A stretch of DNA of 64,000 bases from Dichetophora obliterata (lineage: Eukaryota > Arthropoda > Insecta > Diptera > Sciomyzidae). The DNA lies in contig OY986436.1 of assembly GCA_963920525.1 (NCBI GenBank), positions 175,824,361 through 175,888,360 of the forward strand. Direction: 5' to 3'. How positions within the stretch are numbered: the first letter of the stretch is position 1; each line of letters opens with the position of its first letter. The notes under the pieces were generated by a model. That model searched no databases. It was not told the origin of the DNA and saw nothing but the letters and a program-made list of their open reading frames with translations. The translations under genes were made by a program, and so were the position numbers. Positions 1,268 through 39,727 of the stretch are shown here, piece by piece.

Positions 1268-1860
1268 TGTCATGTTTCCTCACCATTCAATTCTTTGTGG
1301 TTGGTGCTGCCCGTGGCTAGGTAGCCCTTGCATTGCACCACTGTCGTCCCTCTGGCAGCGCTGGTACGCTGGCATATTGCGCGGCTAAGGCTCGCCGGAT
1401 GGGGGTGGTGTTCTTGCCAGTCCGGTCCGACAGCAGGAAACTTCACATGAATAACAATCGTACCAGCTGAAAAGAAAAATTACCGCCTGGTAAAAAAACC
1501 CGGAAAAACCCATAACCAACGAAAAATCTTGAAAAACGATAAATAAAAAAAACCCGCTTATTTTATGAACACGACGAAGGAATAAGACTCGGTTGCTTGC
1601 GGTTGCCGCTTTGGCACGTCTCGTGGGTCGATCTTCGGTGTAGGTCGATCGCCCTAGGCTAACCCGCCCCTTCTGGCCACAAAAGACCAGCCATGGTGAC
1701 CCTTCGCCTGTGTCTAGGTCACCCCAAAACTTCTTTACTCACGCCCTTCCGTTACGATTCACGCCACCTGCCCTTGTTAAATTAAGGAAACATGGTTGCT
1801 ATATCCAATTTCAATTTAACATTTATTTAATAACAACCAACTTTAACATTGTCTCATTCC

Positions 1861-2262
1861 TTTTTTTTTTTTATTACTTAAACTAATACAATTGAAGGTA
1901 AGATTATTATTAGAGCTATTTTAAAATATTTACCAAATACTAAGTCAAAGAATATTCTTGCAATACCGCATAGAAAAATTAACAATTTCTTTCTAAGCGC
2001 TGGACCAATATACCATTAGGATTACAGTAGTTAAACTTAAACGCAATGCATTTTTTTTTCCAAAGGCATTTTTCAACTTACAACTTTTCAACTTACAATT
2101 TAAAAAAAAAAAAAATCAAGAAACTATTTCCGTTCTAATTGGATGTTCTCTAGATTATAAAAAATAGTCGCATACAAAAAAAATTAAGGAATAACCGTAA
2201 CGATAATAGGCAAAACTTTTCCGAAAAATAGTAATTGATGAAAGTATAGAATTCTTGTTTTT
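1861..2262. repeat. LTR-internal duplicated block, copy 1
   Basis: Starts with a T-run then TTATTACTTAAACTAATACA and continues to TTCTTGTTT. It is a diverged direct copy of 3166-3555, sharing AGCGCTGGACCAAT, TTAAACTTAAACG and GGAATAAC landmarks in the same order. Confidence 0.8.
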
Positions 2263-2269
2263 TTTTTTT

Positions 2270-3060
2270 CTTCGCGTTTATTTTCGTTTAGTTTTTAATT
2301 AAGTTGTATTGCTTTTAGTTTAGTTTCTAATTAAGCTGTTTTTATTTTAGTTTAGTTTTCTAATTATGTTGTTTTTATTTTAGTTCAATTTTAATTAAGT
2401 TGTTTCTATTTTAGTTTAGTTTTTAATTAAATAGTTCTTAATGATATGGTTTGGGTTTTTAGTTTAGTTCTTAATTATGTTGCTTATAATTATATCGCGC
2501 TTAATTTAGTTTAGTTTTTAATTAAGTTGTTTTTATTTTCGTTTAGTTTTTAGTTATATAGCTTTTAATTATATCGCCTCTATTTTAGTTTAGTTTTTAA
2601 TTAAGTCGTTTTTATTCTAGCCTAGTTTTTATTAAGTAGTTTTCTTTTAGTTTAATTTTTTTTTTCTTAGTAGTTTTAGTTTAGCTTAGTTCGTAATTAA
2701 GTTGTTTTAATTCTATCGCGCTTATTTTAGTTTAGTTTTTAATTAAGTTGTTTTTATTTTAGATTAGTTTTTATTAAGTAGTTTTTATTCTAGTTTAATT
2801 TTTAATTAGGTTGCTTTTCTTTTAGTTTAGTTTTAATTAAGTGGTTTTATTTTAGCTTAGTTTTTCATTAAGTTGTTTTATTTTAGCTTAGTTTTTATTA
2901 AGTAGTTTTTATTTTAGTTCAGTTTTTAATTATCTCGCGTTTAATCATATAGCTTTTATTTTAGTTTAAGTTTTAATTAAGTTGTTTTTATTTTAGTTTA
3001 AGTTTTAATTAAGTTGTTTTTATTTTAGTTTAGTTTCTAATTAAGTGGTTCTTATTTTTA
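2270..3060. repeat. AT-rich minisatellite inside the 3' LTR
   Basis: Roughly 25 imperfect units of about 30 bp built on TTTTAGTTTAGTTTTTAATT followed by AAGTTGTTTTTA. The same array lies in the other LTR at about 15015-15800. It separates two diverged copies of a ~400 bp block, suggesting the LTR grew by internal duplication and repeat expansion. Confidence 0.85.
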
Positions 3061-3165
3061 TTTTTTTTTTTTTTACTATGCTAAAATGTAAGTCTACTAA
3101 ACTTGAAATTATGAAGAAAAAAAACCTTAAAACTTGTCGAAAAGAGTTCGTGTTGCTCTTTTTTT

Positions 3166-3555
3166 TTTTCTTATTACTTAAACTAATACAAATGAAGGTA
3201 AGATCATTATGCGGGCTATTTTAAAATATTTACTAAATACTAAGTCCAAGCATACTCTTGCGATACAGCATAGGAAAATTTACAATTTTTTTTTTTTTAA
3301 GCGCTGGACCAATGTACCATTATGCTTACAGTCGTTAAACTTAAACGTAATGCATTTTTCAGCTACAAAGGCATTCTTCAACTTACAACTTTTCTAACTT
3401 ACAATTTTTAAGAAAAAATCAAGAAACCATTTCCATTCTAGATTTTAAAAGATATTCGTATACCAAGATTTAAGGAATAACAGTAACAATAAAAGGCAAA
3501 ACTTTTTCGGAAAAAGAATAATAGTTGATGTAAGTATAAGATTCTTGTGTTTTCT
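3166..3555. repeat. LTR-internal duplicated block, copy 2
   Basis: Diverged direct copy of 1861-2262 on the other side of the minisatellite. The two copies differ by scattered substitutions, so the duplication predates the present insertion, in which both LTRs carry it unchanged. Confidence 0.8.
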
Positions 3556-4873
3556 TTTTTCATATAAAAAACTCTTTCGATTCGAAAATCCAATACAGCT
3601 GGGATAGGAATTGACTGATTATTTCTATTACAAAATATTTTACCAGTACCGTATAATGTCGGCATAAATTGTTTAGTACATTTAAGTTGAATGCTTCAAC
3701 AACAATTAGATTAAGAAATATAAATTTATGTGCACATAATTTTTGTTCAAATATTTAAGCTTTAACTGTTTGTGCATGTATTAGATCATGGGAAAAACAA
3801 GTCTTGAAAAAAAAAGTACAATACCATATGTATATGCAATTGTATCGCCATTGTCGAATAACATCGAATCGAAAAAATTTCATATTTGAAGCTCCTTTTT
3901 TTTTCAACTTTATATTATGTTACCCCAGTATTAAAAATGGCCGTTTAACATTCTTAATAAATTTGCTCTAAACTGCATGCATTACATGTAAAAAATTAAC
4001 ATCGTTTTACAACGAATTCTCACTTTAAATTAATATCAAAAATTATCAAAAGTCCAGTTGTAAAAATATAGATGTAAAAAAACGAACGGAAAGCCAATGT
4101 TTTGTAATTGTAAAAAGCAAAAAAACTTCTTTACAGGTGGCAAGCAAGAGAGCAAGGGCCGCGATTTCGGGATTTTAGCCAAAAACAAACAAAAGTCAAG
4201 ACTTAATTCTAAAGTAAGAATTCTACCAAAATAAATATATAAAGGTCACTGCATTCTTGCCAAAATTTAGCATCCGCCAACCCAACATGTTGCGTATGCA
4301 ATTATTTAAATTACTCGAATACACGCTTACCAATCCCAGGCCGCAATTCGCAAACCTGGGGTGAGTGCCGCAATGGTGGAGGTAGTTGGTGTCGTCGCTA
4401 CTGGTGGTGCTGTTGATGTCGTTGGCCACCCGCTAGCTGATGCTGGCAAACGCTGGAGGTTGGTGGGTTGACGATGGTGGAGCTGGTTGTGATGACCTGG
4501 CTGTTGTTGATTTTGGTGGTAGAAAGGGCAACGTGGTGTTGTGTGGAGGTGGCCCAGTAGTGGTGGTGGTGACGAGGGTGTTGGTGATGTCGTTGTTGTT
4601 GTTGTTGGTGGACTCTCCTGGTGTTGTTGGAACTGGCTGGCTGGCTGCTGGTGATTGAGTGCTGGGATGGTTGGGATTTCCGTCTCGATACAGGAGGCGG
4701 CGAAAGTAGCTGCTGCTGCTGCCGGTGGTGACTAGTCCGATGAGGTTGGCGTTGGTCCTTTGTGGTGCGCTAGCTGACGAGGCGATAGTAGGTGGTGGCG
4801 ATTTGAGCGCTAGCTTTTATGGCCTAGCTGAGCTGTGCTGCTGCTATGGTTGCTGTTGGCTGGGGGTGGCGAC

Positions 4874-4981
4874 TATCGCTGCTGTTTTAGTTAGCGCTGC
4901 TGTTTTAGTTAGCGCTGCTGTTTTAGTTAGCGCTGCTGTTTAAGATAGCGCTGCGGTTTAAGATAGCGCTGCTGTTGTAGT
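4874..4981. repeat. 18-bp tandem repeat, six units (3' LTR)
   Basis: Units of the form TAGCGCTGCTGTTTTAGT, the later ones with TTTAAGA or TTGTAGT endings. The other LTR has seven units. The unit contains the palindrome AGCGCT. Confidence 0.9.
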
Positions 4982-5928
4982 GGATCTTTGAGACGTCGCT
5001 TCGAAAACCGGCTCCTTACGATAGCGCTGCAGACAGACGGCCTGCAGTGGTTATTATGGCCGCCGCTACCTTTTTGGCACAGTGGTGCGCTGATGTATGC
5101 GGTGTGGGTGACGCGCGCTTCATTAGCTGAACTTGGCGTTGCTTGAAATTAAGGGTGCATATGTTGCTGACGGTCGTTTGTTTGCTGCTCCTTCTCTACC
5201 CACTGTCGTTGCACACTTGAAAAAGTTGCTCTGTCTGCTTTATTCATTCTAGACCACTTTGCTTGCCTTTTATTAAGTGTGCACCAGCACCGTCGAGCGA
5301 AGCTATCTTGAATGGATATTATATTCATGCAAACAAAAACGATAAGCAATGTCTAACAAAATGACTCACAAATAGAAAAAATTTACCTATCCCAAAATCG
5401 TCGTTGTTTTTTTTTTCTTCAGCAACTTCTGACCAGCCACGAGTAATGCAAAATTTTAATGTGTTAAACTTTGCATATCTTCGTCTACCCAGGGTTGTAT
5501 TTTCTTGCCATTTCGATGATTTTTGGTACTTTGGCAGTGTTGCCACATGTTATCGGTTAAGGTTAGTATGCATTCCCTTTTTAGGCATTCAGACGGGCCA
5601 ACTACCGATGTTGTTCCAACTTCGCTCCCTTTTCGGTGGAATCGACCATAACCGATGGGAGTAGGTAAAGGTTGGGTTGGACTTGCGGATGACACGTCGG
5701 CCAGATTCCGTTAACCGACGCTTGTTTCGGAATTCCGATTGGCTACCGATTCAAGCGCGTGTCGGATCACGCCATTTTCCCGAACGGTTTATGCCCGCTG
5801 AAACTAATGGTACCATTTTTGTTGGTATTTTTCCCTTTCAAGCCCGTGTATGGCCATTTTGTTTGCCCGAACGTTCTCGAACCTCACCGAGGTGCCACAT
5901 CTAAATGAAAAAAGTTGTGTGCACTGAC

Positions 5929-5942
5929 ACACTAGAGGGCGC
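5929..5942 (+). promoter_or_regulatory. CTCF-like motif in the 3' LTR
   Basis: ACACTAGAGGGCGC fits 13 of 14 positions of the animal CTCF core CCASYAGRKGGCRS. It sits in an inverted repeat (CACTAG, six bases, CTAGTG), 62 bases from the LTR edge. The match is by eye; binding is not shown. Confidence 0.35.
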
Positions 5943-6068
5943 TAGTGGAAATACCATGGGTATTCACGAAGGGTATTATTCCCTCTACGCAGGTGCCCAT
6001 GACAAACCCAGGGACTCTCGACCAGCTTCTCAGCTTAAGAGATACATGGGAAAAGATGGCATCATTGG

Positions 6069-6084
6069 CTCTCTCCCTACCTCC
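6069..6084 (-). promoter_or_regulatory. Candidate polypurine tract
   Basis: On the coding strand GGAGGTAGGGAGAGAG lies just after the pol stop but 64 bases from the LTR edge. Polypurine tracts normally touch the LTR; the sequence that does so here (AGTCCCTGGGTT) is not purine-rich. So this is a weak candidate. Confidence 0.3.
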
Positions 6085-6092
6085 GAACTTGA

Positions 6093-9000
6093 TTATTGTT
6101 TTAAGTCTTTCGCGTGAAAAATTCCTATCGTTTTGCCACTTAAATCTTCCAACTCATACAGACTGTTCCCTACTGCCCTCACTATTCGACACTTTAGAAA
6201 ACGCTTTGACAGTTTCGCGCTGATTTGCTTGGAGAAATCACTAAGCTGAAAGTTCCTTCGGTAGACTTCCTGTCCGGGTTGAAATTTAATTTTTCGACTT
6301 TTCAAGTCGTACCTCTTAACATTCTGTTCGTGACTCTTATGTAGCTGTTCGCGGATTTTGTTGCGAATCAGGTCTTGCCGAACCGGCTTCGGTATCACCA
6401 ACGTTTCAGGATCGCTTAGCAGACCCAGTCTCTTTGCTACCTTGTAGGCGCTAGCATGTGTTATCATGTTATGACCGAAGAGAGCAAAATAAGGTGTCAT
6501 TCCTATGGAGGAGTGCACCGAAGAACGCAAGGCACCTTCAATGTCTGACAAATGCTGGTCCCAGTTGGTTTGATCTTGGTCGAGGTATGACCGAATCGCC
6601 GCGAGAATGGACTGGTTGACCCTCTCCGAAGCGTTGGCTTGAGGGGCGTAATTAGCAGTGCGTACATGTCTTATTCCAAAATTATTGATCATTTCGGCAA
6701 ATTCTTTACTTAAAAATTGCATGCCATTGTCGGACATGAGTATTTCTGGGGTACCGAATTTATGAAAAACTTCTGAAATTAGAAACTGGATTACATTGCG
6801 CGCGGTCGCTTTCGTCATCGCCTTTAACAGGGTAAATTTTGTGAAATAGTCTAAGACTATGAAGATGTAGGTATTTTTCTTTTTAGAACGCACGTATGGA
6901 CCGAGAAAATCCACGTAAATTTTTTGAAACGGCCGTATTATTTGCGACTCTTGCCCCATAGGTGGTCTTAGAACCATTTGAGCTGGTTTGCATTCCTTAC
7001 AGACTTGACAATCATTAATGAAATTGAGGACCTGTTGGTTCATATTTGGCCAGTAAAAATATTCCTTGATACGCTTTAAAGTTTTTGTGAAACCACCATG
7101 AGCGACTTGAGGAGGTTGGTGTGCGTTAGCAATAATTGAATGCGTCAAAGGCGCTGGAACCCAGAGTTTCCATGCGAAATCTTCACCATCGGGTGTGCCA
7201 TCATATGGAACCGTACGCTTATAAGCGAAACCATCTATTACCTTGAGGTCAGGCAACTGGGAGTGATTTTTAGTTATGGTACTTAACAAATCCGTATACT
7301 CTTCGCTTAGAAACTCAGGTGACTCGAGGTCAATTAATGCCTTTACCTCACAACTTATTTCGTCCATGTCGTAGCGTGATAACGTGTCGGGAACGACGTT
7401 CTGAGCCCCTTTACGGTGAGCTATCTCGAAGCTAAAGCTTTGCAGATACAAACTCCACCTCGCCAATCGACTGGTTAAGTCTTTATGCGACATTAGCCAT
7501 TTTAGGCTGGAGTGATCCGTTATCACCGTAAAAGGCATTAGCTCGATATAGGCTCTAAACTTCGTTATCCCCATTACCACCGCTAGACATTCGCGCTCAG
7601 TTACTGAATAATTCTTCTGCGCAGGCGTGAGCTTCTTTGAATAGTAGGCGATAGGATGTTCGCCACCCTCATCATCTTTTTGAAACAAAACGCCTCCAAT
7701 TCCAATGTTAGATGCATCTGTTTGTACATAAAAATGTTTCGAAAAATCTGGATGTACCAGGACTGGACTAGAAATAAGAGCTGTTTTTAATTTATCGAAG
7801 GCGCTCTTAGCCTCATCACCGAACTCAAAAGTTTTCGCTTTTTTCAGCGTATCAAAAATGGGTGCTGCTATAGTAGCGTAATCGCGAATAAAGCGACGGT
7901 ACCATCCCGTGGCTCCCATGAAACTTCGAACTTGTTTTGGAGTTTTTGGGTATGTATATCGGTCAATGGCATGGACCTTGTCTGGGTCTGGTCTTAATTT
8001 ACCTTCGCCTACGATATAACCTAGGTACCTTAGCTCACTACAACAAAACTTCGATTTGGCCACGTTAATGGTTAGGTTGGCCGAACTTAACAACTGCGCT
8101 ACCTGCTCTAACTTTTTGAGGTGACTATCGAAATCTGAAGACACAACAAGGAGATCGTCCAAATAAATGAAAACGCTTTCACGAAGATTGGCTGGCACGA
8201 CTTTGTCCATCAACCGGCACAACCGTTGGGCTGCATTACATAGCCCAAAAGGCATGACGGTAAATTGACAAAGCGGACGACCTGGCACTGTAAACGCGGT
8301 TTTCTCCCTACTACTGACGGCAAGCGGAATTTGCCAAAAGGCGTCTTTAAGATCCACACTTGAGATAAAGTGTGTGTCACCGAGACGACTGAGCAACCCC
8401 TCTATGTGTGGAAGTGGGTAGGCGTCCTTCACTGTGAGTGCATTGAGCTTGCGAGCGTCCAGGCACAATCGACATTTCTCGCCTTTTCGCACGAAGGCCA
8501 CTCGATTGTTCCATGGACTTTCGCTCGGCTCAATAACTCCCAGTGAAAGCATCCTATCCAGCTCCGCAAACATGAGACCCTGGACAGCCGGTGAGACTGG
8601 GTAGTGCTTATCTTTCACAGGCACTGCGTCGCCGGTATCTATAAGGTGCTCTTCTAAAGACGTCTTGCCTAGACCTTTCTTCGTAAAGCAGGGAAATTTT
8701 TCTATAACTGCGTTAAGCCTGTGTTGTTGCTGGGCTGTCAAAACTTTCATTTTCGGCGTTGCATGGCTTTGGACTTCTTCCTCCAAAGCAATGTTGTTGG
8801 TCGTTATGCTATCAACTTTGAGCTGCATGAGATTGAATTTTTTTATAAAGTCTACACCTAGAAACAATTCTCGTTTTAGAGAAGGTGTTAAATAAAAAAC
8901 AATCTCCTGCTCTTGGTTGTCGAATTTAATTTTAGCTTTAACGCGACCTATGATTGAATGCATTCGCCCATCGGCAGTTTTGACGAAAGATTTAAACTTA

Positions 9001-9407
9001 AAAATAGGCAACTTGCACTTTTCCACAAAACTTAAGCAGTTATTCCCTAAACACGACACTGTTGCTCCACTGTCTAATAATCCCTCAATTCGCTGTCCAT
9101 TTATTTCAATATTTGTGTAAAACCTACTGTCTTCGCCCTCATAAAGTTCTGATGCTGAAATTTCTTTATAATTATTTTTCCTCAAACGATATCTAACTCT
9201 TGTCTTTTCGATTTTTGTTGGCTGCTCTGCAAATATTCTTTTTCGAACTTCCTCATAGTTTTTGAGTCTCACATGAAATGGTTTAATTTCTTTCAACTTT
9301 ACTTCAACGGTATTTACGGCTTGATCGCAACTACTTTGATTACTCTTATTCTTAGATGTTAAAACAACAATTTTATTTTCTACTTCGGTCTGTGTGGCTG
9401 AGGTTAG
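6093..9407 (-). CDS. Pol polyprotein: protease, RT, RNase H, integrase
   Basis: The frame continues from gag past the UGA and has no ATG at its beginning; the first TTG is at 9296, so it is most likely a readthrough extension. Counting from that TTG (1067 residues to the stop): aspartic protease with DSGA at 75-78; reverse transcriptase with the YLDD catalytic box at 378-381; RNase H with Asp527, Glu569 and Asp594; integrase zinc domain His726, His733, Cys763, Cys766; and integrase core Asp796, Asp856, Glu891, a proper DD35E spacing. All key residues are present and no stop or frameshift interrupts it. The stop lies 88 bp before the LTR, leaving no room for env. Together the enzymes copy and insert the element. 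The domain order RT-RNase H-integrase identifies Ty3/gypsy rather than copia. Confidence 0.95.
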   Translation of the reverse strand, partial: LTSATQTEVENKIVVLTSKNKSNQSSCDQAVNTVEVKLKEIKPFHVRLKNYEEVRKRIFAEQPTKIEKTRVRYRLRKNNYKEISASELYEGEDSRFYTNIEINGQRIEGLLDSGATVSCLGNNCLSFVEKCKLPIFKFKSFVKTADGRMHSIIGRVKAKIKFDNQEQEIVFYLTPSLKRELFLGVDFIKKFNLMQLKVDSITTNNIALEEEVQSHATPKMKVLTAQQQHRLNAVIEKFPCFTKKGLGKTSLEEHLIDTGDAVPVKDKHYPVSPAVQGLMFAELDRMLSLGVIEPSESPWNNRVAFVRKGEKCRLCLDARKLNALTVKDAYPLPHIEGLLSRLGDTHFISSVDLKDAFWQIPLAVSSREKTAFTVPGRPLCQFTVMPFGLCNAAQRLCRLMDKVVPANLRESVFIYLDDLLVVSSDFDSHLKKLEQVAQLLSSANLTINVAKSKFCCSELRYLGYIVGEGKLRPDPDKVHAIDRYTYPKTPKQVRSFMGATGWYRRFIRDYATIAAPIFDTLKKAKTFEFGDEAKSAFDKLKTALISSPVLVHPDFSKHFYVQTDASNIGIGGVLFQKDDEGGEHPIAYYSKKLTPAQKNYSVTERECLAVVMGITKFRAYIELMPFTVITDHSSLKWLMSHKDLTSRLARWSLYLQSFSFEIAHRKGAQNVVPDTLSRYDMDEISCEVKALIDLESPEFLSEEYTDLLSTITKNHSQLPDLKVIDGFAYKRTVPYDGTPDGEDFAWKLWVPAPLTHSIIANAHQPPQVAHGGFTKTLKRIKEYFYWPNMNQQVLNFINDCQVCKECKPAQMVLRPPMGQESQIIRPFQKIYVDFLGPYVRSKKKNTYIFIVLDYFTKFTLLKAMTKATARNVIQFLISEVFHKFGTPEILMSDNGMQFLSKEFAEMINNFGIRHVRTANYAPQANASERVNQSILAAIRSYLDQDQTNWDQHLSDIEGALRSSVHSSIGMTPYFALFGHNMITHASAYKVAKRLGLLSDPETLVIPKPVRQDLIRNKIREQLHKSHEQNVKRYDLKSRKIKFQPGQEVYRRNFQLSDFSKQISAKLSKRFLKCRIVRAVGNSLYELEDLSGKTIGIFHAKDLKQ

Positions 9408-9410
9408 TCA
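9405..9410 (-). promoter_or_regulatory. Leaky stop UGA-CUA between gag and pol
   Basis: The gag stop is TGA (9410-9408) followed by CTA. The frame then stays open for 37 codons into pol. UGA-CUA is a known high-efficiency readthrough context in animal and viral messages. Gag and pol in one frame separated by one stop points to readthrough rather than the -1 frameshift common in gypsy elements. Function is inferred, not shown. Confidence 0.75.
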
Positions 9411-11138
9411 TTCCGTCGTTTCTTGAGTTTGAGTCTGAGTCTGCGTTTGAGCTGATCTAGACTCCACCTGAACATTTCTATTTGGCCTAACGGTTCCCTG
9501 GCATTTCGGACACTTCGGGGTAACTACGCCCTCCGTTCCGCATCTATAACAAAATATTCGCCTTACGGCTGCTGTACACTCAACGAAATTGTGCCCTGGC
9601 TGTTTGCAGTTCCAGCATGGAAATGTTCGAGAGGAATTAATAGCATCTATTTCAAACGCTGGAGTCGAAAAGTCCTGCTCTACATTTAACTCGTGCACTT
9701 GCGCATTGCGAGGTACATATTGACGCGGAGGCGGTTGATAAGCCTGGCGTTGGTAGTTTATATGTGTTTCAGCCTTTTTGCAGGCTTTGCAAAACTCAGT
9801 CAAACCCTCTATGCGCATGGCAAATAGTAGCTGTGACATCTCTTTCCTCAGGTTGCTCCTCATTATCTCCACTAAATCCTGTTCAGCCAGTGGATTACGC
9901 TGTTGGTTCCTCAGGGTCAAAACAGATTGATAAAAGTCGTCGAAAGCTTCATCCCGTTGTTGTCTTCGATCCATTATTTGTCTTTGGATTTCGAAGTCGC
10001 TTTCGTGCCGCTTGAACTGAGTTACCAGCGCTTCTCGAAGTGCGTACCAACTAGGTATTCGGTTTAACCGTCGAAATCCCCAGAACCATTGAGCTGCGTT
10101 TCCAGTTAGCAAACTATGAAAATTTCTAATTACTTCAGGCCATGGATACCGGTAGTCATTGCATAAGGTTTCTACTCGAAAGACGAATTCGTCCACGCTG
10201 ATTGATTTATTTGTTCCGTCGAACTTAAAACCCCATTTGTCCATTTCCACACGTCGCGGTTGTTCAGGCTGATGGTAATGTGTAACCGGCGCTTGTACAG
10301 GCCCTGTATATGCAAAGGCACTCGGCTGACGTATCGAGGGTCCAGCTCGTTGCTCTTGGTGTCGATTTCTGGTCTCCACTTGATACGTCTGCGACTGAGA
10401 AAAAACTTGCGGCTGCGGTACAATCGTCGGTTGCGGCCCATGCGGTGGTGGTTGCGAAAAATCTGGGAAAGTTTGCGAGATGCTCCTGATGTCCTGTGAT
10501 CCGATTTGTTGGTGCTGTTCCATATTTCGATCTGGCCATGCCTGTGAACTGATAGACGGGGGTGGTGGAGGTGGTGGTTGTAAAGTCACTAACTTCGTAA
10601 CCGCTGGTCGGCTCTCTGAATACTGAGGCGTCATCGACCCTAAGCTTTCGGCTATTAATTGTGGGACTAATACCCGCAAACGCTCCTCCATTCCCGACAT
10701 CATATCCACTTGGGCTAAGCCCACTGCTGACTTGACATAATCCCTTATATTGATGCTCGAGTTGACCACACCTTGGGACGTTGGTGCTCTTCCTGACGAC
10801 CTGTCTCTGACGCTTCCCATCTGCGAATGTTGCTGAAATTGCTTGCGCACGTTTAGAGCAGTTAGGCTGCTAAACTCTGGAGACGTGATGCTGCTATTAG
10901 AGAAGTTAAGCTCTTCCGAGGTACGTCTAGGTGCTGTTGGTAGTGCACTCTGCATCGCCATAGGTGTTGTAATCGTCGTTGTCGCAGTGGTAAAAATCGG
11001 AATGGTAGTACTCATCGGGCCTGTTTTTGGAATTGCCCCAGTACTAGTTGAGGTGGGCGGCACTAGGCTTCCACTGCCGGTTGCATTCGGGTTGGTTTCA
11101 CTATTATCCATTCTGCTTTGCTGCCTAGTGTGAACCAT
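9408..11138 (-). CDS. Gag polyprotein of the Ty3/gypsy element
   Basis: This 576-residue protein forms the retrotransposon particle and binds its RNA. The N-terminal ~280 residues are low complexity, rich in Ser, Thr, Pro and Gln. Residues ~300-460 carry the Ty3/gypsy capsid fold: a WGFKFDGTNKSISVDEFVFR segment, then LLTGNAAQWFWGFRR and an RRQQRDEAFDDFYQSV segment, all typical of Retrotrans_gag. Near residues 510-545 lie two zinc-binding motifs: a CCHC knuckle (CWNCKQPGHNFVEC) and a second Cys4 motif (CYRC, then CPKC). The C-terminus ends in a TQTQTQ run before a UGA stop. The first ATG at 11138 opens the frame. Pol continues in the same frame after the stop. The frame has no internal stop, consistent with a recent, possibly active copy. 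Confidence 0.95.
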   Translation of the reverse strand: MVHTRQQSRMDNSETNPNATGSGSLVPPTSTSTGAIPKTGPMSTTIPIFTTATTTITTPMAMQSALPTAPRRTSEELNFSNSSITSPEFSSLTALNVRKQFQQHSQMGSVRDRSSGRAPTSQGVVNSSINIRDYVKSAVGLAQVDMMSGMEERLRVLVPQLIAESLGSMTPQYSESRPAVTKLVTLQPPPPPPPSISSQAWPDRNMEQHQQIGSQDIRSISQTFPDFSQPPPHGPQPTIVPQPQVFSQSQTYQVETRNRHQEQRAGPSIRQPSAFAYTGPVQAPVTHYHQPEQPRRVEMDKWGFKFDGTNKSISVDEFVFRVETLCNDYRYPWPEVIRNFHSLLTGNAAQWFWGFRRLNRIPSWYALREALVTQFKRHESDFEIQRQIMDRRQQRDEAFDDFYQSVLTLRNQQRNPLAEQDLVEIMRSNLRKEMSQLLFAMRIEGLTEFCKACKKAETHINYQRQAYQPPPRQYVPRNAQVHELNVEQDFSTPAFEIDAINSSRTFPCWNCKQPGHNFVECTAAVRRIFCYRCGTEGVVTPKCPKCQGTVRPNRNVQVESRSAQTQTQTQTQETTE

Positions 11139-12840
11139 GCCCCAAGGAATCGTTATTCAAAAGAATCAAAAATATCAAGAAAATTTACAAAACTTCAAAC
11201 ACCTAAGTGGTGCAAATCGACAAACGAGAATTCGCTGAATCAGAAGAAGCGTCCGTTAGGACCTGAGAATCAATTTATTCAAAAACGAGAAACTTCAATT
11301 ATTTTGTTCGAACCGATGGTTTCAATGCGACACAGTTTACTTAACTGTTGTTCGCCAAATGCCAAAACGAAAGGAAAAAATTATAAAAAAATTAAGATCA
11401 AAATGACTGTCCTTTAAGGATGGTGGTTGCAAAACTTAGCAAAAAAAATTTTAAATAATAATATTAATGGTAGTATTAGAAATGATAATAATATATATAG
11501 TAAAGATATGCAAAGGAAAATAATATAATATTCAAAAAGTTGATAAAATATAATGATATTAATTAAAGGTAAGCATAATAATAACTGAACTCCATAGAGG
11601 TCAAAGAAATTTTGTCGTAGCATGTAGTAATATAGAAAAGTGGGGAAGTGATATAAAAGAAAAAATTTTGTAACTATTCTAGAGCTACAATCTTAACTGT
11701 CTAAAATTTCGCAACTTATCAAAAAAAAAATTTTAAAAGTGTAAGATTATTTTTACTTGAATATGTATATATATCGATATATAAAGACTGAGTATATATA
11801 TATACCGCTATATATATATACAGGAAAATTGGCTTATTAAAGCGCGTAGCTGAAAGGAAACTTAAATATATTTTTTCAACCCGAAGATAAAAATATATAT
11901 ATAGATATATTTTTCTCTAAGGTATTTTGTTTATAATGATATATTAAATAAAGAGGAAATAATTTGGATAATCAGAAGAACTTGACTATCGCTTCAAAAA
12001 AGGTATACGTAAAATAAAAAGGAGACTAACTTCGGTGAAGTTAATAGTCTAAACGAAAAAAGAAAATTATAATTCCGAAATCAAATAATCAAAACTAAAA
12101 TGGCTAATAATAATAACTCAAAAAAATAAAAATATATATAGGCATTAAGTGTGGATGGTGGCGTAAAACAAACAAGAGTGGCGTAAAAAAAAACTAACTT
12201 CGACGAGACCAGCGAAAGCAACCTTCTTCTTTGTGTAATAATTGCACCCTCCAAATCGAGGTTCTTAACCGAAACTTCCCACAATATTTTCCTATGCTGA
12301 GGTCGCTCAGGCATATTCGCTTCACCTAATGGTGTTGTGGTAGTTCATCCCGAGTTGGAGTATTTATTCAAAACGAAAAAATTTTTATTTATATTTGTCC
12401 CTACTCCAGAGTGCTTTGCAACTCTATACCCCCCTTAATTCAGCAGCGCCAAACTCCAAATCGAGGTATTTTTTTTCTTAACTTAGCTAGCCTGTCAAAT
12501 TGATGACCCCACTGACCTGAGGTCCTACTCGGCAATGCGACTCGAAAAGCACATGCGATTCGAAAACAAAATCACACCATGTAAATACATGGCTTAAGAT
12601 TTCGAAACGACAGTAAATTCTACCTCTGCTCTAAAATTCCGTTTTTGTCGGCATTGAATTTGAACACCTCAAAAATTTGTCAAAAAACATGTAAATCCCT
12701 GGCACGATCCTGCTCTCGAACCGCACCCGCATCCCGAATCGTACTACCGAGCAAGGCCCCTGACTGCTCTTCCCGATAAGGAGCGATTTTCAAAAAAAAC
12801 AAAAACAATTTATATTTTAATTTAACCTTCCTCTAAGCCC

Positions 12841-12991
12841 GCACGCAGTGAAGCATATGAGCCGCACTGTGCGCAAAAACCAAACTGCAAAATAAACGCT
12901 TGCGAAGAAACGAGATGCGCTCGATGTTCGCGGTTGCACTCATAAGCAAAACGCTTTGCTCACAGTCCAGCCCATATGCTTCACTGTGTGC
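12841..12991. repeat. 19-bp inverted repeat in the leader
   Basis: GCACGCAGTGAAGCATATG (12841-12859) is complementary to 12973-12991 with one mismatch, enclosing about 113 bases. It could form a long-range stem in the genomic RNA. Confidence 0.75.
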
Positions 12992-13425
12992 GCTGCCTAA
13001 GAGTGCCGCTACCCCCCTTTTTGTACACTAGGTGCACCCTCCGAGTCGAGGTATTTTTGCTCTCAGCTAGCCTGTCCCGTTTATGACCCCTCTGGTCAGG
13101 CTGCTCTTCTCGGTCTGGAGTATTTGACAAAACGAGATTTTTAATTTTCAATTGGTTTACATGCCGACAAACCCCGGCATGTTCGGGTTTTTCACCTTAC
13201 GGTGTAAAAAAACAGCCGCCCAATCTGGGAACAGACGCTGGCCAACACGCCGCCCAATCTGGGAACAGACGCGTGTTGGGCTCGCTGGGGTACGCGGGTG
13301 CGCTACTCCCGTCATCCTACATATTTCACGCAGGATGCCCCTGCGGGTTTGAATTTCAAAAAAAAATAAAAAAAATTATAAAACTAACAAAAAATTTTAC
13401 TTAATACGCATCGGCCTCCAGTATC

Positions 13426-13929
13426 CGTCGCAACTGCAGTCGAGGCTCTGTGGCCTAAACGCTGCAGGACTTACGGAAAACCGAAAACTTAGTGCGAGAA
13501 AAAAACCCTCAACTTATTTCTAAACTATTAGCCCTAGCAGTAAAAAATCCTACTGTTAAGAACCACGTCGCAACTGCAGTCGAGGCGCTGTGGCCTAAAC
13601 GCTGCAGGACTTACGCGGTCTTACGTATTCGGACCTGCTTGGGATCTAACCAAAATATTTTTATTTTTCACCCTAGCAGTAAAAAAATCCCACTGAAAAG
13701 GAAACCGAACCACGTCGCAACTGCAGTCGAGGCGCTGTGGCCTAAACGCTGCAGGACTTACGGGTTCTCAACCTTATAGGACCTGCTTCGGGTTTAACCA
13801 AAACTATACCAAAAACTTACTCTACGGCCCGAAACGAGATTTTGTTGATTTGCAGTTCGGCTCCTTTCGCCTTAACCCCCGTCGCAACTGCAGTCGAGGT
13901 TCAAAGACCCAAACGCTGCAGGACTTACG
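13426..13929 (-). repeat. Four-copy 50-bp palindromic hairpin array in the leader
   Basis: Units at 13426-13475, 13566-13615, 13713-13762 and 13880-13929 begin CGTCGCAACTGCAGTCGAGG and end GCTGCAGGACTTACG. Within a unit, CGT pairs with ACG at the ends, CTGCAG (positions 9-14) with CTGCAG (37-42), and AGGC (18-21) with GCCT (28-31) around a 6-nt loop. Copy 4 has a different loop and AGGT/ACCC, so pair 21-28 changes from C-G to T-A while staying paired, although pair 18-31 is lost. Flanking sequence (CCCTAGCAGTAAAAAA before, GGACCTGCTT after) also repeats around copies 2 and 3. Confidence 0.85.
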
Positions 13930-13985
13930 TGGCCAGACTCCAGGAGACCAACCAAAAAAACCATAAAAATCCTAACCTTTGTCGG

Positions 13986-14003
13986 GCCCCACGTTGGGCG
14001 CCA
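13986..14003 (-). promoter_or_regulatory. tRNA-Lys primer binding site
   Basis: On the coding strand the 18 bases starting 4 nt after the LTR begin TGGCGCCCAACGTGGGGC. This is the exact complement of the 3' end (with CCA) of insect tRNA-Lys(CTT), as I know that sequence. It primes minus-strand DNA synthesis and fixes the element's orientation. Confidence 0.9.
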
Positions 14004-15014
14004 ATTCTGTCATGTTTCCTCACCATTCAATTCTTTGTGGTTGGTGCTGCCCGTGGCTAGGTAGCCCTTGCATTGCACCACTGTCGTCCCTCTGGCAGCG
14101 CTGGTACGCTGGCATATTGCGCGGCTAAGGCTCGCCGGATGGGGGTGGTGTTCTTGCCAGTCCGGTCCGACAGCAGGAAACTTCACATGAATAACAATCG
14201 TACCAGCTGAAAAGAAAAATTACCGCCTGGTAAAAAAACCCGGAAAAACCCATAACCAACGAAAAATCTTGAAAAACGATAAATAAAAAAAACCCGCTTA
14301 TTTTATGAACACGACGAAGGAATAAGACTCGGTTGCTTGCGGTTGCCGCTTTGGCACGTCTCGTGGGTCGATCTTCGGTGTAGGTCGATCGCCCTAGGCT
14401 AACCCGCCCCTTCTGGCCACAAAAGACCAGCCATGGTGACCCTTCGCCTGTGTCTAGGTCACCCCAAAACTTCTTTACTCACGCCCTTCCGTTACGATTC
14501 ACGCCACCTGCCCTTGTTAAATTAAGGAAACATGGTTGCTATATCCAATTTCAATTTAACATTTATTTAATAACAACCAACTTTAACATTGTCTATTGTC
14601 TCATTCCTTTTTTTTTTTTATTACTTAAACTAATACAATTGAAGGTAAGATTATTATTAGAGCTATTTTAAAATATTTACCAAATACTAAGTCAAAGAAT
14701 ATTCTTGCAATACCGCATAGAAAAATTAACAATTTCTTTCTAAGCGCTGGACCAATATACCATTAGGATTACAGTAGTTAAACTTAAACGCAATGCATTT
14801 TTTTTTCCAAAGGCATTTTTCAACTTACAACTTTTCAACTTACAATTTAAAAAAAAAAAAAATCAAGAAACTATTTCCGTTCTAATTGGATGTTCTCTAG
14901 ATTATAAAAAATAGTCGCATACAAAAAAAATTAAGGAATAACCGTAACGATAATAGGCAAAACTTTTCCGAAAAATAGTAATTGATGAAAGTATAGAATT
15001 CTTGTTTTTTTTTT

Positions 15015-15800
15015 TTCTTCGCGTTTATTTTCGTTTAGTTTTTAATTAAGTTGTATTGCTTTTAGTTTAGTTTCTAATTAAGCTGTTTTTATTTTAGTTT
15101 AGTTTTCTAATTATGTTGTTTTTATTTTAGTTCAATTTTAATTAAGTTGTTTCTATTTTAGTTTAGTTTTTAATTAAATAGTTCTTAATGATATGGTTTG
15201 GGTTTTTAGTTTAGTTCTTAATTATGTTGCTTATAATTATATCGCGCTTAATTTAGTTTAGTTTTTAATTAAGTTGTTTTTATTTTCGTTTAGTTTTTAG
15301 TTATATAGCTTTTAATTATATCGCCTCTATTTTAGTTTAGTTTTTAATTAAGTCGTTTTTATTCTAGCCTAGTTTTTATTAAGTAGTTTTCTTTTAGTTT
15401 AATTTTTTTTTTCTTAGTAGTTTTAGTTTAGCTTAGTTCGTAATTAAGTTGTTTTAATTCTATCGCGCTTATTTTAGTTTAGTTTTTAATTAAGTTGTTT
15501 TTATTTTAGATTAGTTTTTATTAAGTAGTTTTTATTCTAGTTTAATTTTTAATTAGGTTGCTTTTCTTTTAGTTTAGTTTTAATTAAGTGGTTTTATTTT
15601 AGCTTAGTTTTTCATTAAGTTGTTTTATTTTAGCTTAGTTTTTATTAAGTAGTTTTTATTTTAGTTCAGTTTTTAATTATCTCGCGTTTAATCATATAGC
15701 TTTTATTTTAGTTTAAGTTTTAATTAAGTTGTTTTTATTTTAGTTTAAGTTTTAATTAAGTTGTTTTTATTTTAGTTTAGTTTCTAATTAAGTGGTTCTT
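15015..15800. repeat. AT-rich minisatellite inside the 5' LTR
   Basis: Counterpart of the array at 2270-3060, in the same order of units, confirming that the array was copied by reverse transcription with the rest of the LTR. Confidence 0.85.
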
Positions 15801-17619
15801 ATTTTTATTTTTTTTTTTTTACTATGCTAAAATGTAAGTCTACTAAACTTGAAATTATGAAGAAAAAAAACCTTAAAACTTGTCGAAAAGAGTTCGTGTT
15901 GCTCTTTTTTTTTTTCTTATTACTTAAACTAATACAAATGAAGGTAAGATCATTATGCGGGCTATTTTAAAATATTTACTAAATACTAAGTCCAAGCATA
16001 CTCTTGCGATACAGCATAGGAAAATTTACAATTTTTTTTTTTTTAAGCGCTGGACCAATGTACCATTATGCTTACAGTCGTTAAACTTAAACGTAATGCA
16101 TTTTTCAGCTACAAAGGCATTCTTCAACTTACAACTTTTCTAACTTACAATTTTTAAGAAAAAATCAAGAAACCATTTCCATTCTAGATTTTAAAAGATA
16201 TTCGTATACCAAGATTTAAGGAATAACAGTAACAATAAAAGGCAAAACTTTTTCGGAAAAAGAATAATAGTTGATGTAAGTATAAGATTCTTGTGTTTTC
16301 TTTTTTCATATAAAAAACTCTTTCGATTCGAAAATCCAATACAGCTGGGATAGGAATTGACTGATTATTTCTATTACAAAATATTTTACCAGTACCGTAT
16401 AATGTCGGCATAAATTGTTTAGTACATTTAAGTTGAATGCTTCAACAACAATTAGATTAAGAAATATAAATTTATGTGCACATAATTTTTGTTCAAATAT
16501 TTAAGCTTTAACTGTTTGTGCATGTATTAGATCATGGGAAAAACAAGTCTTGAAAAAAAAAGTACAATACCATATGTATATGCAATTGTATCGCCATTGT
16601 CGAATAACATCGAATCGAAAAAATTTCATATTTGAAGCTCCTTTTTTTTTCAACTTTATATTATGTTACCCCAGTATTAAAAATGGCCGTTTAACATTCT
16701 TAATAAATTTGCTCTAAACTGCATGCATTACATGTAAAAAATTAACATCGTTTTACAACGAATTCTCACTTTAAATTAATATCAAAAATTATCAAAAGTC
16801 CAGTTGTAAAAATATAGATGTAAAAAAACGAACGGAAAGCCAATGTTTTGTAATTGTAAAAAGCAAAAAAACTTCTTTACAGGTGGCAAGCAAGAGAGCA
16901 AGGGCCGCGATTTCGGGATTTTAGCCAAAAACAAACAAAAGTCAAGACTTAATTCTAAAGTAAGAATTCTACCAAAATAAATATATAAAGGTCACTGCAT
17001 TCTTGCCAAAATTTAGCATCCGCCAACCCAACATGTTGCGTATGCAATTATTTAAATTACTCGAATACACGCTTACCAATCCCAGGCCGCAATTCGCAAA
17101 CCTGGGGTGAGTGCCGCAATGGTGGAGGTAGTTGGTGTCGTCGCTACTGGTGGTGCTGTTGATGTCGTTGGCCACCCGCTAGCTGATGCTGGCAAACGCT
17201 GGAGGTTGGTGGGTTGACGATGGTGGAGCTGGTTGTGATGACCTGGCTGTTGTTGATTTTGGTGGTAGAAAGGGCAACGTGGTGTTGTGTGGAGGTGGCC
17301 CAGTAGTGGTGGTGGTGACGAGGGTGTTGGTGATGTCGTTGTTGTTGTTGTTGGTGGACTCTCCTGGTGTTGTTGGAACTGGCTGGCTGGCTGCTGGTGA
17401 TTGAGTGCTGGGATGGTTGGGATTTCCGTCTCGATACAGGAGGCGGCGAAAGTAGCTGCTGCTGCTGCCGGTGGTGACTAGTCCGATGAGGTTGGCGTTG
17501 GTCCTTTGTGGTGCGCTAGCTGACGAGGCGATAGTAGGTGGTGGCGATTTGAGCGCTAGCTTTTATGGCCTAGCTGAGCTGTGCTGCTGCTATGGTTGCT
17601 GTTGGCTGGGGGTGGCGAC

Positions 17620-17745
17620 TATCGCTGCTGTTTTAGTTAGCGCTGCTGTTTTAGTTAGCGCTGCTGTTTTAGTTAGCGCTGCTGTTTTAGTTAGCGCTGC
17701 TGTTTAAGATAGCGCTGCGGTTTAAGATAGCGCTGCTGTTGTAGT
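17620..17745. repeat. 18-bp tandem repeat, seven units (5' LTR)
   Basis: Same array as 4874-4981 with one extra unit, a typical replication-slippage difference arisen since the LTRs were copied. Confidence 0.9.
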
Positions 17746-18692
17746 GGATCTTTGAGACGTCGCTTCGAAAACCGGCTCCTTACGATAGCGCTGCAGACAG
17801 ACGGCCTGCAGTGGTTATTATGGCCGCCGCTACCTTTTTGGCACAGTGGTGCGCTGATGTATGCGGTGTGGGTGACGCGCGCTTCATTAGCTGAACTTGG
17901 CGTTGCTTGAAATTAAGGGTGCATATGTTGCTGACGGTCGTTTGTTTGCTGCTCCTTCTCTACCCACTGTCGTTGCACACTTGAAAAAGTTGCTCTGTCT
18001 GCTTTATTCATTCTAGACCACTTTGCTTGCCTTTTATTAAGTGTGCACCAGCACCGTCGAGCGAAGCTATCTTGAATGGATATTATATTCATGCAAACAA
18101 AAACGATAAGCAATGTCTAACAAAATGACTCACAAATAGAAAAAATTTACCTATCCCAAAATCGTCGTTGTTTTTTTTTTCTTCAGCAACTTCTGACCAG
18201 CCACGAGTAATGCAAAATTTTAATGTGTTAAACTTTGCATATCTTCGTCTACCCAGGGTTGTATTTTCTTGCCATTTCGATGATTTTTGGTACTTTGGCA
18301 GTGTTGCCACATGTTATCGGTTAAGGTTAGTATGCATTCCCTTTTTAGGCATTCAGACGGGCCAACTACCGATGTTGTTCCAACTTCGCTCCCTTTTCGG
18401 TGGAATCGACCATAACCGATGGGAGTAGGTAAAGGTTGGGTTGGACTTGCGGATGACACGTCGGCCAGATTCCGTTAACCGACGCTTGTTTCGGAATTCC
18501 GATTGGCTACCGATTCAAGCGCGTGTCGGATCACGCCATTTTCCCGAACGGTTTATGCCCGCTGAAACTAATGGTACCATTTTTGTTGGTATTTTTCCCT
18601 TTCAAGCCCGTGTATGGCCATTTTGTTTGCCCGAACGTTCTCGAACCTCACCGAGGTGCCACATCTAAATGAAAAAAGTTGTGTGCACTGAC

Positions 18693-18706
18693 ACACTAGA
18701 GGGCGC
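18693..18706 (+). promoter_or_regulatory. CTCF-like motif in the 5' LTR
   Basis: Identical copy of the motif at 5929-5942, near the start of the LTR in the sense direction, where promoter or insulator elements would be expected. Confidence 0.35.
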
Positions 18707-18768
18707 TAGTGGAAATACCATGGGTATTCACGAAGGGTATTATTCCCTCTACGCAGGTGCCCATGACA

Positions 18769-22563: not shown

Positions 22564-23850
22564 TTGGGGGTTGGAATTAATTTTAAAGGTTTTTTTTCGG
22601 TTTTTGAGCATTTATTTAGAAACAACGGTACAATGTATATTATTCAAAGTATTGTCCATCGTTAGCTACAACATTTTCCCATCTTTCTGGCAGCATATGG
22701 ATTCCGCGCCGGAAGAACGATTCGTCTTTTGAGGCAATCCACGAATCGACCCATTTTTTGGTATCCTCGTAAGAAGTGAAGCGCTGCTCAGCCAAGCCAT
22801 GCGTCATCGATCTGAATAGGTGGTAGTCGGAAGGGGCTATGTCTGGGCTATAAGGCGGGTGGGGTAGCACATCCCAATTCAGCGCCTCCAACGTTTCCTT
22901 GACGGTTCTTGCAACATGTGGCCGTGCGTTGTCATGTTGAAAAACCACTTTGTCGTGTCTTTTGGCATATTCCGGCCGTTTAACCTTTAATGCTCGGCTC
23001 AATTGCATCAATTGTTGTTGGTAGCGTTCCCCAGTGATGGTTTCGTTAGGTTTTAGCAGCTCATATTACACGACACCCTCCTGATCCCACCAAATACACA
23101 GCATAAGCTTGGCGCCATGAATATTCGGCTTGGCCCTCGATGTTGATGCATGGCCGGGTGGTCCCCACGATTTTTTTCGCTTAGGATTATCGTAATGGAT
23201 CCACTTTTCATCGCCAGTGACAATACGATGCAAAAAACTCTTCCTTTTATGCCGTTGAAGCAGTTGTTCGCACATGCAAAATCGCCGTTCAACGTCTCTC
23301 GGCTTCAACTGGTACGGCACCCAATTTCCTTGCTTTTGAATCATTCCCATGGCCTTCAAGCATTTGCCGACCGTTGATAAGTCGACTCCCAATGATTCTG
23401 ACAATTCTTGAAGGGTTTGACACGGGTCTTCATCGAGCAAAGCCTCCAATTCCTCATCTTCAAACTTTTTCGGCTGGCCCGAACGCTCTTTGTCTTCCGT
23501 ATCAAAATCACCACTTTTAAACCGACGGAACCAGTACTCACAAGTAGAAATCGATGGAGCATAGTTCCCGTAAGCCTCAGTAAGCGTGCGTTGTGCTTCA
23601 ACCGCTTTTTTCTTCAAATGGAAGCACAAAAGTAAACCTTCCCGCAAATTGCGTTTTGTTGGAACGAAAATCGACATGTTCACAGAGAAAAAACTATATG
23701 TTGTTTACACTTCAGTGGAATGACACATACTGAAAAATGAAGCTTAGACAATGTGCTTTGAAATGAATATAGTCACAGGTGTGCCCGATGCGATCTATTG
23801 ATAGTTACGCCATCTCTTAGAAAACCTTTAAAACTAATTCCAACCCCCAA
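22564..23850 (-). mobile_element. mariner element (mauritiana-like)
   Basis: This 1287-bp element is flanked by TA on both sides (22562-22563 and 23851-23852). Its ~30-bp terminal inverted repeats begin TTGGGGGTTGGAATTA and differ at one position. One transposase reading frame fills it. The length, TIR, TA target and DD34D catalytic triad are all standard for mariner. Confidence 0.96.
22640..23683 (-). pseudogene. mariner transposase with one premature stop
   Basis: The frame runs from ATG at 23683 to a stop at 22640, about 347 codons, the normal mariner length (~345). The N-terminal helix-turn-helix DNA-binding part (FCFHLKKKAVEAQRTL region) precedes a catalytic domain with VTGDEKW, HDNARPH and YSPDIAPSDYHLF. 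The second and third aspartates are separated by 34 residues, the DD34D hallmark. The WVP linker motif is also present. A single TAA at 23066-23068 interrupts the frame after WWDQEGVV, where related transposases have tyrosine; the reading frame resumes unchanged and no other lesion is visible. The copy is therefore inactive by one substitution. Sequence character fits the mauritiana/rosa group, including the ending DGQYFE. Confidence 0.95.
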
Positions 23851-36964: not shown

Positions 36965-39727
36965 ACCTTTTAGTTCCTTATCCTTTACCAAAACGTTCGT
37001 GGCATTAACACAAAACTAAATAATATACTAATTTTGAGTCACAACCTTTACTTTAATATAATTGCTTTTAGTGAGACTTGGCTGAAACCTAACACTCTAA
37101 ATACTGAAATTCTGTGCAACAAATTTAACATGTATCGCAAAGATAGAAACTTCATTCCTGGTATTTGCTCTAAAGGCGGGGGTGTGTTGAATGCAGTCAA
37201 AGCGACACATTTCTCTGAGAGTTATTAATTCCAGAATCCTTGGACATTGAATTCTGTTGTGTTCATGTTAAGTTTGGTTCCTTGAGCCTTTTTATTACAT
37301 GCTCATATATTTCTCCCCTTTCTACCTTAGAAGTTTATAGCAAACATTTAGCTTCTATTAGTAAAGTTTGCTCAAAACTGCAATCTAATGATCATATTTT
37401 AATAACTGGAGATTTTAACCTGCCAAACATTTCTTGGAACTGCTGTTCTGAAATTTCTGGAATATTTTTACCTTTGCCTGAAAGTTCATCCGATAATTAT
37501 TTTTTAAACGATCTCTCAATCCAAGGCCTGTTCCAACTTAATTGCATCTTTAACAAAAATAATCGTTTGCTTGATCTGGTGTTTTTTGATGACAGCAATA
37601 TCGCTTCTGTGTCTAAATTAGATCCTCTGGTTGCACCCGAAGATTCCAACATTAGATATTATTTTAAATTTTTTAAAACCATCTGTGCAGTAGTATGATT
37701 CTCAACCGCCTATTGAGTTTAACTTTAAAAAAACAAACTACGTGATTTTGAAGAATAACTTGTCCAATATAAACTGGAATTCTATTTTAAACATTAATAC
37801 AAAAAGTTTATCTTCTCAGAGTCTCGATGATGCGGTATATGCGTTTAATAGAACGCTCAATGATTGTTTTCTAAAAGCTGTTCCGCAAAGGAAAGCCTCT
37901 TTGATATCGGGTCCGATATGGTATAGAAATGAATTAAAAAAAATAAGGAACTTGAAATCTAAATACTATAAAAAATATCAAAAAATACATAACATATGTG
38001 ATTTTGGATGCTATACCTCGATTAAATATAGTTCCTATCCTTCTTTTATGAAGTATAATTCTATTGAGTCTGATAATGATAATAGTATTTGCAATCTTTT
38101 TGCTGACTTTTTCAAGACGACTTATTCATCATCGTCTTATGACTATTTAAGTTATCCTTCCAATATTCAATCTGGGGATATTTATTTCCCAATAATTGAC
38201 ACAAACATAGTCTTATCATTTTTAAAAAATATTAAAACATCATATAAAAGTGGGGCTGATAACATACCTTCATGTATATTAAAATACTGCTGTGAAGAAT
38301 TAATAACTCCAATCTCTTTACTATTTACTTCATCATTAAAATCCTGCTATTTTCCTGCAGCCTGGAAGCATCCATTTATCATTCCGCTGCATAAATCCGG
38401 AAATAGGTCTTTAATTGATAACTACCGCGGCATCGCAAAATTAAGCGCTTTGCCTAAACTTTTAGAGGCGATTGTTACATGATGACTATCGCATAGCGTT
38501 AAATCTTTAATGTCTCCTTTCCAACATGGATTCCTTTCTGGAAAATCCACTGTTACTAACCTTCTCGAATTTACATCAAAACTATAGAAAACTTTGGAAA
38601 AGGCATGCAGACTGATGTTATTTACACGGATTTTAGCAAAGCTTTTGACGTTGTAAATCACAAACTATTGATCTTAAAATTACATCTTGTTGGATTTCCT
38701 ATACCGTTGGTAAAGTGGATTGAATCTTACTTAAGCAATAGAACACAATCTGTTCTTTTTAAGCTCAAGAAATCACACGAGTTTCCTGTTACTTCAGGAG
38801 TACCTCAAGGAAGTCATCTTGGGCCCCTTCTGTTTCTACTTTTTATAAACGATTTGCCATCTGTCAGAATGCATTCTAGCATCTTAATGTTTGCTGACGA
38901 CGTCAAACTCTTCCTTTCTTTTAAAAATGATAATGACGCTGTATTTTTGCAAGCCGACATTGATCATCTTCATAACTGGTGCAAAACGAACCGTATGAAC
39001 CTCAACATGAAGAAATGCAAGCATATGTCTTTCTCGCGCAAACCACAAATTAAATGTACCTTCAAAATTTGTGTTTATCCATTGGAGTCCTTAGATTTTT
39101 TGCAATGATCTTGGAGTTACAATGGATCCTAAGCTACGCTTTAGTATTCATGTAAATAAAATAATAAATAGAGCAAATAGTACTTTAGGTTTTATTAAAC
39201 GTTGGGCAAAAGAGTTTAATGATCCATTCATAACGAAAATCTTATTCACTTCCCTAGTGCGGTCTATCTTAGAATACGCTTAAGTTGTTTGGTGCCCACG
39301 ATACGGTTGTTACATAGACGACATTGAATCAGTGCAGAAACAATTTCTTTTGTTTTGCTTAAGCTATCTTTATTGTAATACTGATTTTCACTTACCACCT
39401 TATGAATATCGGTTACAACTCTTAAATTTTCCTTCTTTAAAAAATCGGAGAATTATGATAAATGCTTGTTGGATTACAAAACTTTTACATGGATATGTCA
39501 ACAGTTCATATTTATTGAGTAAAATATATTATTTTAATATTCCACTTCGTCCTAGAAGATCTTTTGAGTTACTCCACATGAACTTTTGTAGAACTAATTA
39601 TTTACAAAATTAGCCTCTTAGAAGCGCTTACGGTGATTTTAATTTTGTATCTGATGTTATATCCTTAAGTGAATCCATGGACTCAATCAAACATAAAATT
39701 ATAGATTACCTGCAGTACCGTCGTTGA
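36965..39727 (+). pseudogene. Decayed non-LTR retrotransposon ORF2
   Basis: The same endonuclease-RT architecture as the minus-strand element but from a different family and much older. QNVRGINTK starts the endonuclease near 36989, followed by AFSETWLK, KGGGVLNAVK, LITGDFNLPNISW and LLDLVF. RT motifs include NYRGIAKLSALPKLLEAI, HGFLSGKSTVTNLLEF, IYTDFSKAFDVVNH, GVPQGSHLGPLLF and FADDVKLF. The end reads KHKIIDYLQYRR then a stop at 39727. At least four frame shifts or stops (near 37226, 37698, 38482, 39108) break it, and the linker after the endonuclease is shortened. No ORF1 was found upstream. Confidence 0.9.

Follow-up and report, generated by a model that had tools for sequence, protein, structure and literature searches.

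Retroelements need Gag in large excess over Gag-Pol, in a ratio that is set by a recoding signal. Gammaretroviruses such as murine leukaemia virus (MuLV) carry an in-frame stop codon between gag and pol, and readthrough of this stop yields Gag-Pol (PMC5009743). Among Ty3/gypsy elements, Tosmo1, Tosmo2, Tosmo3, Tcry1 and Tj1 of fission yeasts conserve GAA-TGA-CT(A/G) between the two genes (PMC10085805), and integration of Tj1 is lost without the gag stop (PMC4600332). According to the fission-yeast element paper, -1 frameshifting prevails among the Tf1/sushi elements found in other species. UGA-CUA(G) drives readthrough in reporters (PMC4132726, PMC4207609); the strong vertebrate context is UGA-CUAG, and alphaviruses using UGA-CUA(G) are named in the same study (PMC4132726). 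A rice gypsy-type element has been cited among readthrough candidates (PMC2754532). In the open-licence literature, covered by titles and the beginnings of abstracts, we found no report of gag-pol readthrough in Ty3/gypsy elements of flies or other animals; the survey of Gao et al. (2003), which reportedly treats recoding in long terminal repeat (LTR) elements, lies outside that scope. Here we analyse a 64,000-nucleotide stretch of the genome of the fly Dichetophora obliterata (contig OY986436.1, positions 175824361-175888360, hereafter the window), whose minus strand carries a Ty3/Gypsy-type LTR retrotransposon with gag and pol in one frame and TGA-CTA between them. The original prediction for this junction was likely stop-codon readthrough. 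Our comparisons support it, and from the pattern of sequence variation we put the probability that programmed UGA-CUA readthrough yields Gag-Pol in this family at roughly 90%.

Results

The junction of the window copy comprises the following features.

9408..11138, minus strand: gag, 576 codons plus TGA, with a capsid-like domain (Pfam PF03732, E 1.8e-6), a CCHC zinc knuckle and a further CxxC pair
9408..9410, minus strand: gag stop TGA, preceded by GAA (sequence; 65 of 66 distinct copies)
9405..9407, minus strand: CTA, the codon that begins the pol frame and forms with TGA the UGA-CUA readthrough hexanucleotide (sequence and copy comparison)
6093..9407, minus strand: pol open frame (linker, protease, reverse transcriptase, RNase H, integrase) in the same frame as gag (translation and Pfam)

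That gag and pol share one frame and are separated by TGA-CTA was thereby confirmed on the minus strand (9410..9408 and 9407..9405). Past the TGA, 1104 codons are open in the gag frame up to a stop at 6093. The original prediction had described 37 open codons leading into protease; the frame is indeed open, but 37 codons lead only as far as the first TTG (9296), and the whole of pol is open. The protease motif DSGA is codon 112 after the gag stop in the window copy. An in-frame DSGA is present in 42 of 44 distinct copies, and in none of these 42 does an in-frame Met lie upstream of it, which bears out the claim that pol lacks an ATG. We detected no -1 frameshift signal in the window copy: pol is in frame 0, there is no in-frame heptamer in the stretch that begins at the zinc knuckle and ends at +150, and five stops interrupt the -1 frame on the way from the zinc knuckle to the TGA. 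The end of gag (9411-9470) encodes a Gln-Thr repeat whose length differs by whole codons among genomic copies.

We then looked at the junction across the host genome (1.31 Gb, 76 contigs). A junction pattern that included the stop matched 153 places at up to three mismatches (reversed control, 0). Since such a pattern favours the stop, the hexanucleotide was masked in a second search, which gave 149 places (reversed control, 1). Among the 100 of these listed, in which the rest of the pattern was free of mismatches, 99 read TGACTA and one TGTCTA. A search with 416 bp of junction DNA, which barely depends on the stop, yielded 40 scored matches of 184 candidates at 30 loci; with duplicates removed, all of them carry TGACTA. 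From 78 junction loci we assembled 66 distinct copies including the window copy, excluding the refetched window (L029) and identical loci. GAATGACTA is present in 65 of the 66 aligned copies. The exception, L059, has TGT instead of TGA and is decayed, with in-frame stops on both sides. Within the 2.5 kb compared, 13 of the 66 copies contain an in-frame stop; the other 53 are open, in the sense of being free of further in-frame stops for about 1.2 kb on either side of the junction rather than over the whole element, and every one of them carries GAA-TGA-CTA. GAA, TGA and CTA are also invariant in the 41 copies that were tabulated codon by codon. That is, TGA-CTA at the junction is family-wide and not a private mutation. 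A sense codon in most copies, which would have pointed to such a mutation, was not found; L059 is the sole sense copy among the 100 matches listed. A collection of viral contigs returned 36 pattern matches, with no relatives by tblastn.

Selection on the sequence around the stop was assessed as the ratio of non-synonymous to synonymous polymorphism (pN/pS) over the 53 open copies, by codon segment and by frame. In frame 0, gag gave values of 0.09-0.12, with 0.11 for codons -25..-1. After the stop, the values were 0.33 (+1..+10), 0.48 (+11..+37), 0.09 (+38..+90) and 0.05 (+91..+420), compared to 0.82 to 4.04 in the two shifted frames. For an earlier set of 44 copies that included broken ones, the ratio was 0.02-0.13 across gag, 0.44 over the linker and 0.06-0.09 further downstream. 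Directly after the CTA, nearly all variation at codons +2 and +3 is synonymous (ACC/ACG and TCA/TCC, 41 copies). By this pattern of variation, the sequence past the stop appears to be translated in the gag frame.

The coding pattern, together with the lack of a Met before DSGA, argues against both an intron at the stop and an internal start of pol. A spliced mRNA could drop the TGA and join gag to pol. The gene model of a Stomoxys homologue (P0010) skips the same junction, perhaps as an intron introduced by the gene caller, and constraint is lowest at linker codons +11..+37 (0.48). However, codons -25..-1 (0.11) and +1..+10 (0.33) look coding in one frame, whereas an intron would free them, and there is no reason for a spliced-out stop to persist in all 53 open copies. 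The variation beside the stop thus makes a spliced junction very improbable. We assign an equally small chance to an independent start of pol by internal initiation or reinitiation. Pol is a complete open frame with the TTG at 9296 as its first near-start codon, but none of the 42 copies showing DSGA offers a Met before the motif, and the codons from the stop to the TTG, despite weak constraint, show the variation of coding sequence.

RNA folds, computed without pseudoknots, were indistinguishable from shuffled sequences for the 115 nt after CTA (z -0.60), for 291 nt around the stop (z 0.28) and for consensus alignments of 80, 160 and 300 nt (z 0.94, -0.33 and 0.52). A fold in the sequence after the stop, to which the original prediction had directed attention, was therefore not recovered. 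Editing of UGA to UGG by ADAR in some transcripts, as known from hepatitis delta virus, would give the same in-frame fusion product; it requires double-stranded RNA, yet no stable or conserved fold was found around the stop, and it leaves the CUA context unexplained, so that we consider it most improbable. Selenocysteine insertion at the UGA was not supported: neither a selenocysteine insertion sequence (SECIS) nor any other Rfam family matched at the gathering threshold in the whole 64-kb window. Finally, one mutated master element could give rise to many copies that all bear its stop, but that the family consists of dead descendants of one inactivated source copy is just as improbable as editing, given that the stop is common to junction variants differing at several neighbouring bases, that 53 of the 66 distinct copies are free of in-frame stops across the compared 2.5 kb, that pN/pS is 0.05 at codons +91..+420, that the LTRs of the window copy show no substitutions and that L059, the single sense copy in the 100 listed matches, is decayed.

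Related elements

The closest pol homologues (P0003-P0010) are 64-71% identical to the window pol. The best homologues with a species name come from Stomoxys calcitrans (P0010) and Lucilia cuprina (P0023), the latter being more distant (54%) and listed as a fused polyprotein of 1625 amino acids. Searching the host genome with P0023 gave 32 matches at 41-68% identity (29 of 23298 candidates scored), and the junctions of 20 of these (L079-L098, about eight types by their gag ends) were examined. These related families have the zinc-knuckle layout of gag in common with the window family, and their pol is homologous. Their junctions are different. Pol lies in the -1 frame in 18 of the 20, compared to frame 0 in the window family, and none has TGACTA as gag stop. 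The two exceptions, L087 (pol at +1) and L098 (pol at 0), have gag ends resembling those of the -1 copies and hence presumably carry an indel in between. GGGAAAC, a classical -1 slippery site, is found in frame at 19 junctions (all except L097), where it starts 5 nt past the final Cys codon of CxxC. Among two further junctions, L111 is -1 as judged by eye and L110 is decayed. The host genome thus supports the earlier statement that readthrough is unusual for the gypsy-type group. In several of the related families the spacing between the last CxxC of gag and the in-frame GGGAAAC is constant, and the set L079-L098 is ready material for a study of -1 frameshifting.

At what is probably the corresponding position the window element carries a similar, non-slippery sequence.

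9492..9500, minus strand: CAG-GGA-ACC directly downstream of the last gag CxxC, with its start 90 nt upstream of the stop and containing GGGAACC (by-eye correspondence)

In the window family this site reads GGGAAC(C/T) in 64 of 66 copies, GGGAACA in one and GAGAACC in one, and GGGAAAC in none; it lies one codon nearer to the last Cys than the heptamer of the relatives. Judged by eye, it is the probable counterpart of their slippery site. Among six gag homologues, compared as proteins, P0123 and P0126 continue after the last Cys as Cys-Gln-Gly-Asn, where the window element has Cys-Gln-Gly-Thr.

In a quick tree of 63 reverse transcriptase rows, rooted at the midpoint only, the window pol clusters with P0003-P0010 (9 rows, SH-aLRT 96), its nearest neighbours, which were compared as proteins only. 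The -1 families of the genome fall in the other half of the tree, the split between the halves being weak (69). On the window's side, the first residues of P0013 read as the -1 translation of a zinc-knuckle end (by eye, from protein only). With the more distant families as the point of comparison, a change from frameshift to readthrough seems likely.

Element structure and neighbouring features

The junction belongs to a complete element, bounded as follows.

1268..18768, minus strand: whole LTR retrotransposon copy, 17.5 kb, with a 4-bp target site duplication CATT (LTR and flank comparison)
14008..18768, minus strand: 5' LTR, 4761 bp, TGTCATG...CATGACA (LTR comparison)
13986..14003, minus strand: 18-nt stretch resembling a primer binding site, TGGCGCCCAACGTGGGGC, 4 nt inside the 5' LTR (sequence)
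1268..6004, minus strand: 3' LTR, 4737 bp (LTR comparison)

The two LTRs differ by no substitutions and four gaps. Pfam identified Retrotrans_gag in the gag frame and, in order along the pol frame, aspartyl protease, RVT_1, RNase H, integrase zinc-binding and rve domains. Paired LTRs, the target site duplication, the primer binding site next to the 5' LTR, the CCHC motif of gag and the order protease, reverse transcriptase, RNase H, integrase are those of Ty3/Gypsy elements. Only 88 nt separate the end of pol (6093) from the 3' LTR (6004), which leaves no space for env, and none was found in the element; env does not define the wider Ty3/Gypsy group and is confined to its errantivirus-like members. 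The window copy is young and belongs to a Ty3/Gypsy-type LTR retrotransposon family that is fly-like by its closest named relatives. We take tRNA-Lys(CUU) to be a candidate primer, and from such a binding site one might presume a place in the Osvaldo/Ulysses-type clade of fly Gypsy elements.

Between the primer binding site and gag, the leader contains four copies of a repeat of about 62 nt (13420-13935). Two of these, folded on the element strand, form hairpins that beat shuffled sequences (z -3.09 each) and are possibly putative packaging or dimer signals. Both LTRs include an AT-rich repeated stretch with many steps of 31-32 nt (2289-3139 and 15036-15854). Elsewhere in the window we noted two stretches resembling non-LTR retrotransposons, with endonuclease and reverse transcriptase domains (31647-34448, minus strand, and 37240-39108, plus strand), a Mariner-like transposase fragment with HTH_48 and Transposase_1 (23066-23683, minus strand) and a frame with a DUF4817 helix-turn-helix match (62738-63217, plus strand).

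Discussion

The reading of the junction as a site of programmed readthrough is favoured because gag and pol lie in one frame, the stop is conserved, both of its sides are under coding selection, pol has no ATG before the protease motif and the relatives have a different junction. Most ribosomes would terminate at the UGA and release Gag. A minority would decode the UGA as an amino acid, owing to the weak context GAA-UGA-CUA, and, staying in frame, would synthesize Gag-Pol. The stop would then set the ratio of Gag to Gag-Pol, a job apparently done by -1 frameshifting in the related families. Ribosomal readthrough itself, its rate and the loss of a frameshift site en route are what we infer from these patterns.

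Several observations weigh against this interpretation. The description of UGA-CUA as a strong readthrough hexanucleotide holds in so far as it drives readthrough in reporters, but the strong form is UGA-CUAG (PMC4132726), and here the base 3' of CTA is A in all 41 tabulated copies. No RNA structure beyond that of shuffles was found 3' of the stop, and the efficiency may therefore be modest. L059 is a natural copy with a sense codon in place of the stop. The hexanucleotide is invariant among copies that resemble one another (the 66 copies have a mean pairwise identity of 0.927 and a minimum of 0.647), which limits the power of this invariance taken by itself. The linker codons +1..+37 are under weaker constraint (0.33 and 0.48) than the remainder, the first of these values coming from ten codons and the pN/pS ratios standing without a significance test.

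Readthrough in the window family and -1 frameshifting in its relatives would place two types of recoding signal in related families of one genome, together with an apparent remnant of the other type, and how an element switches its recoding method becomes testable. We lean, with clearly less confidence than for readthrough as such, towards the following history: a fly Ty3/Gypsy lineage swapped a G-GGA-AAC frameshift for UGA-CUA readthrough, leaving the vestige GGGAACC near the old site and frameshift-carrying relatives in the same genome, and reached GAA-UGA-CUA independently of the fission-yeast elements and without detected RNA structure. If true, recoding modes are interchangeable over short evolutionary distances.

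Among known systems, MuLV-type gammaretroviruses have an in-frame stop between gag and pol as the window family does, but combine UAG with a 3' pseudoknot, whereas the window family has UGA-CUA and no structure detected in folds without pseudoknots. Alphaviruses and the mammalian genes OPRL1, AQP4 and MDH1 share the UGA-CUA hexanucleotide; unlike the window family, they are not cases of retroelement gag-pol junctions, and CUA is followed by G in the mammalian genes tested but by A in the window family. The Tf1/sushi elements Tj1, Tosmo1-3 and Tcry1 of fission yeasts have Gag and Pol in one frame with GAA-TGA-CT(A/G) between them and, in the case of Tj1, no AUG for Pol. Their hosts belong to a different kingdom, and since Tf1/sushi elements elsewhere mostly use a -1 frameshift, the likeness is probably convergent. 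With the window family, the UGA-CUA gag-pol junctions of fission yeasts would gain a probable counterpart in animals. Neither the mechanism nor its occurrence in Ty3/gypsy elements is new; the variant here is a fly lineage that has probably exchanged frameshifting for readthrough.
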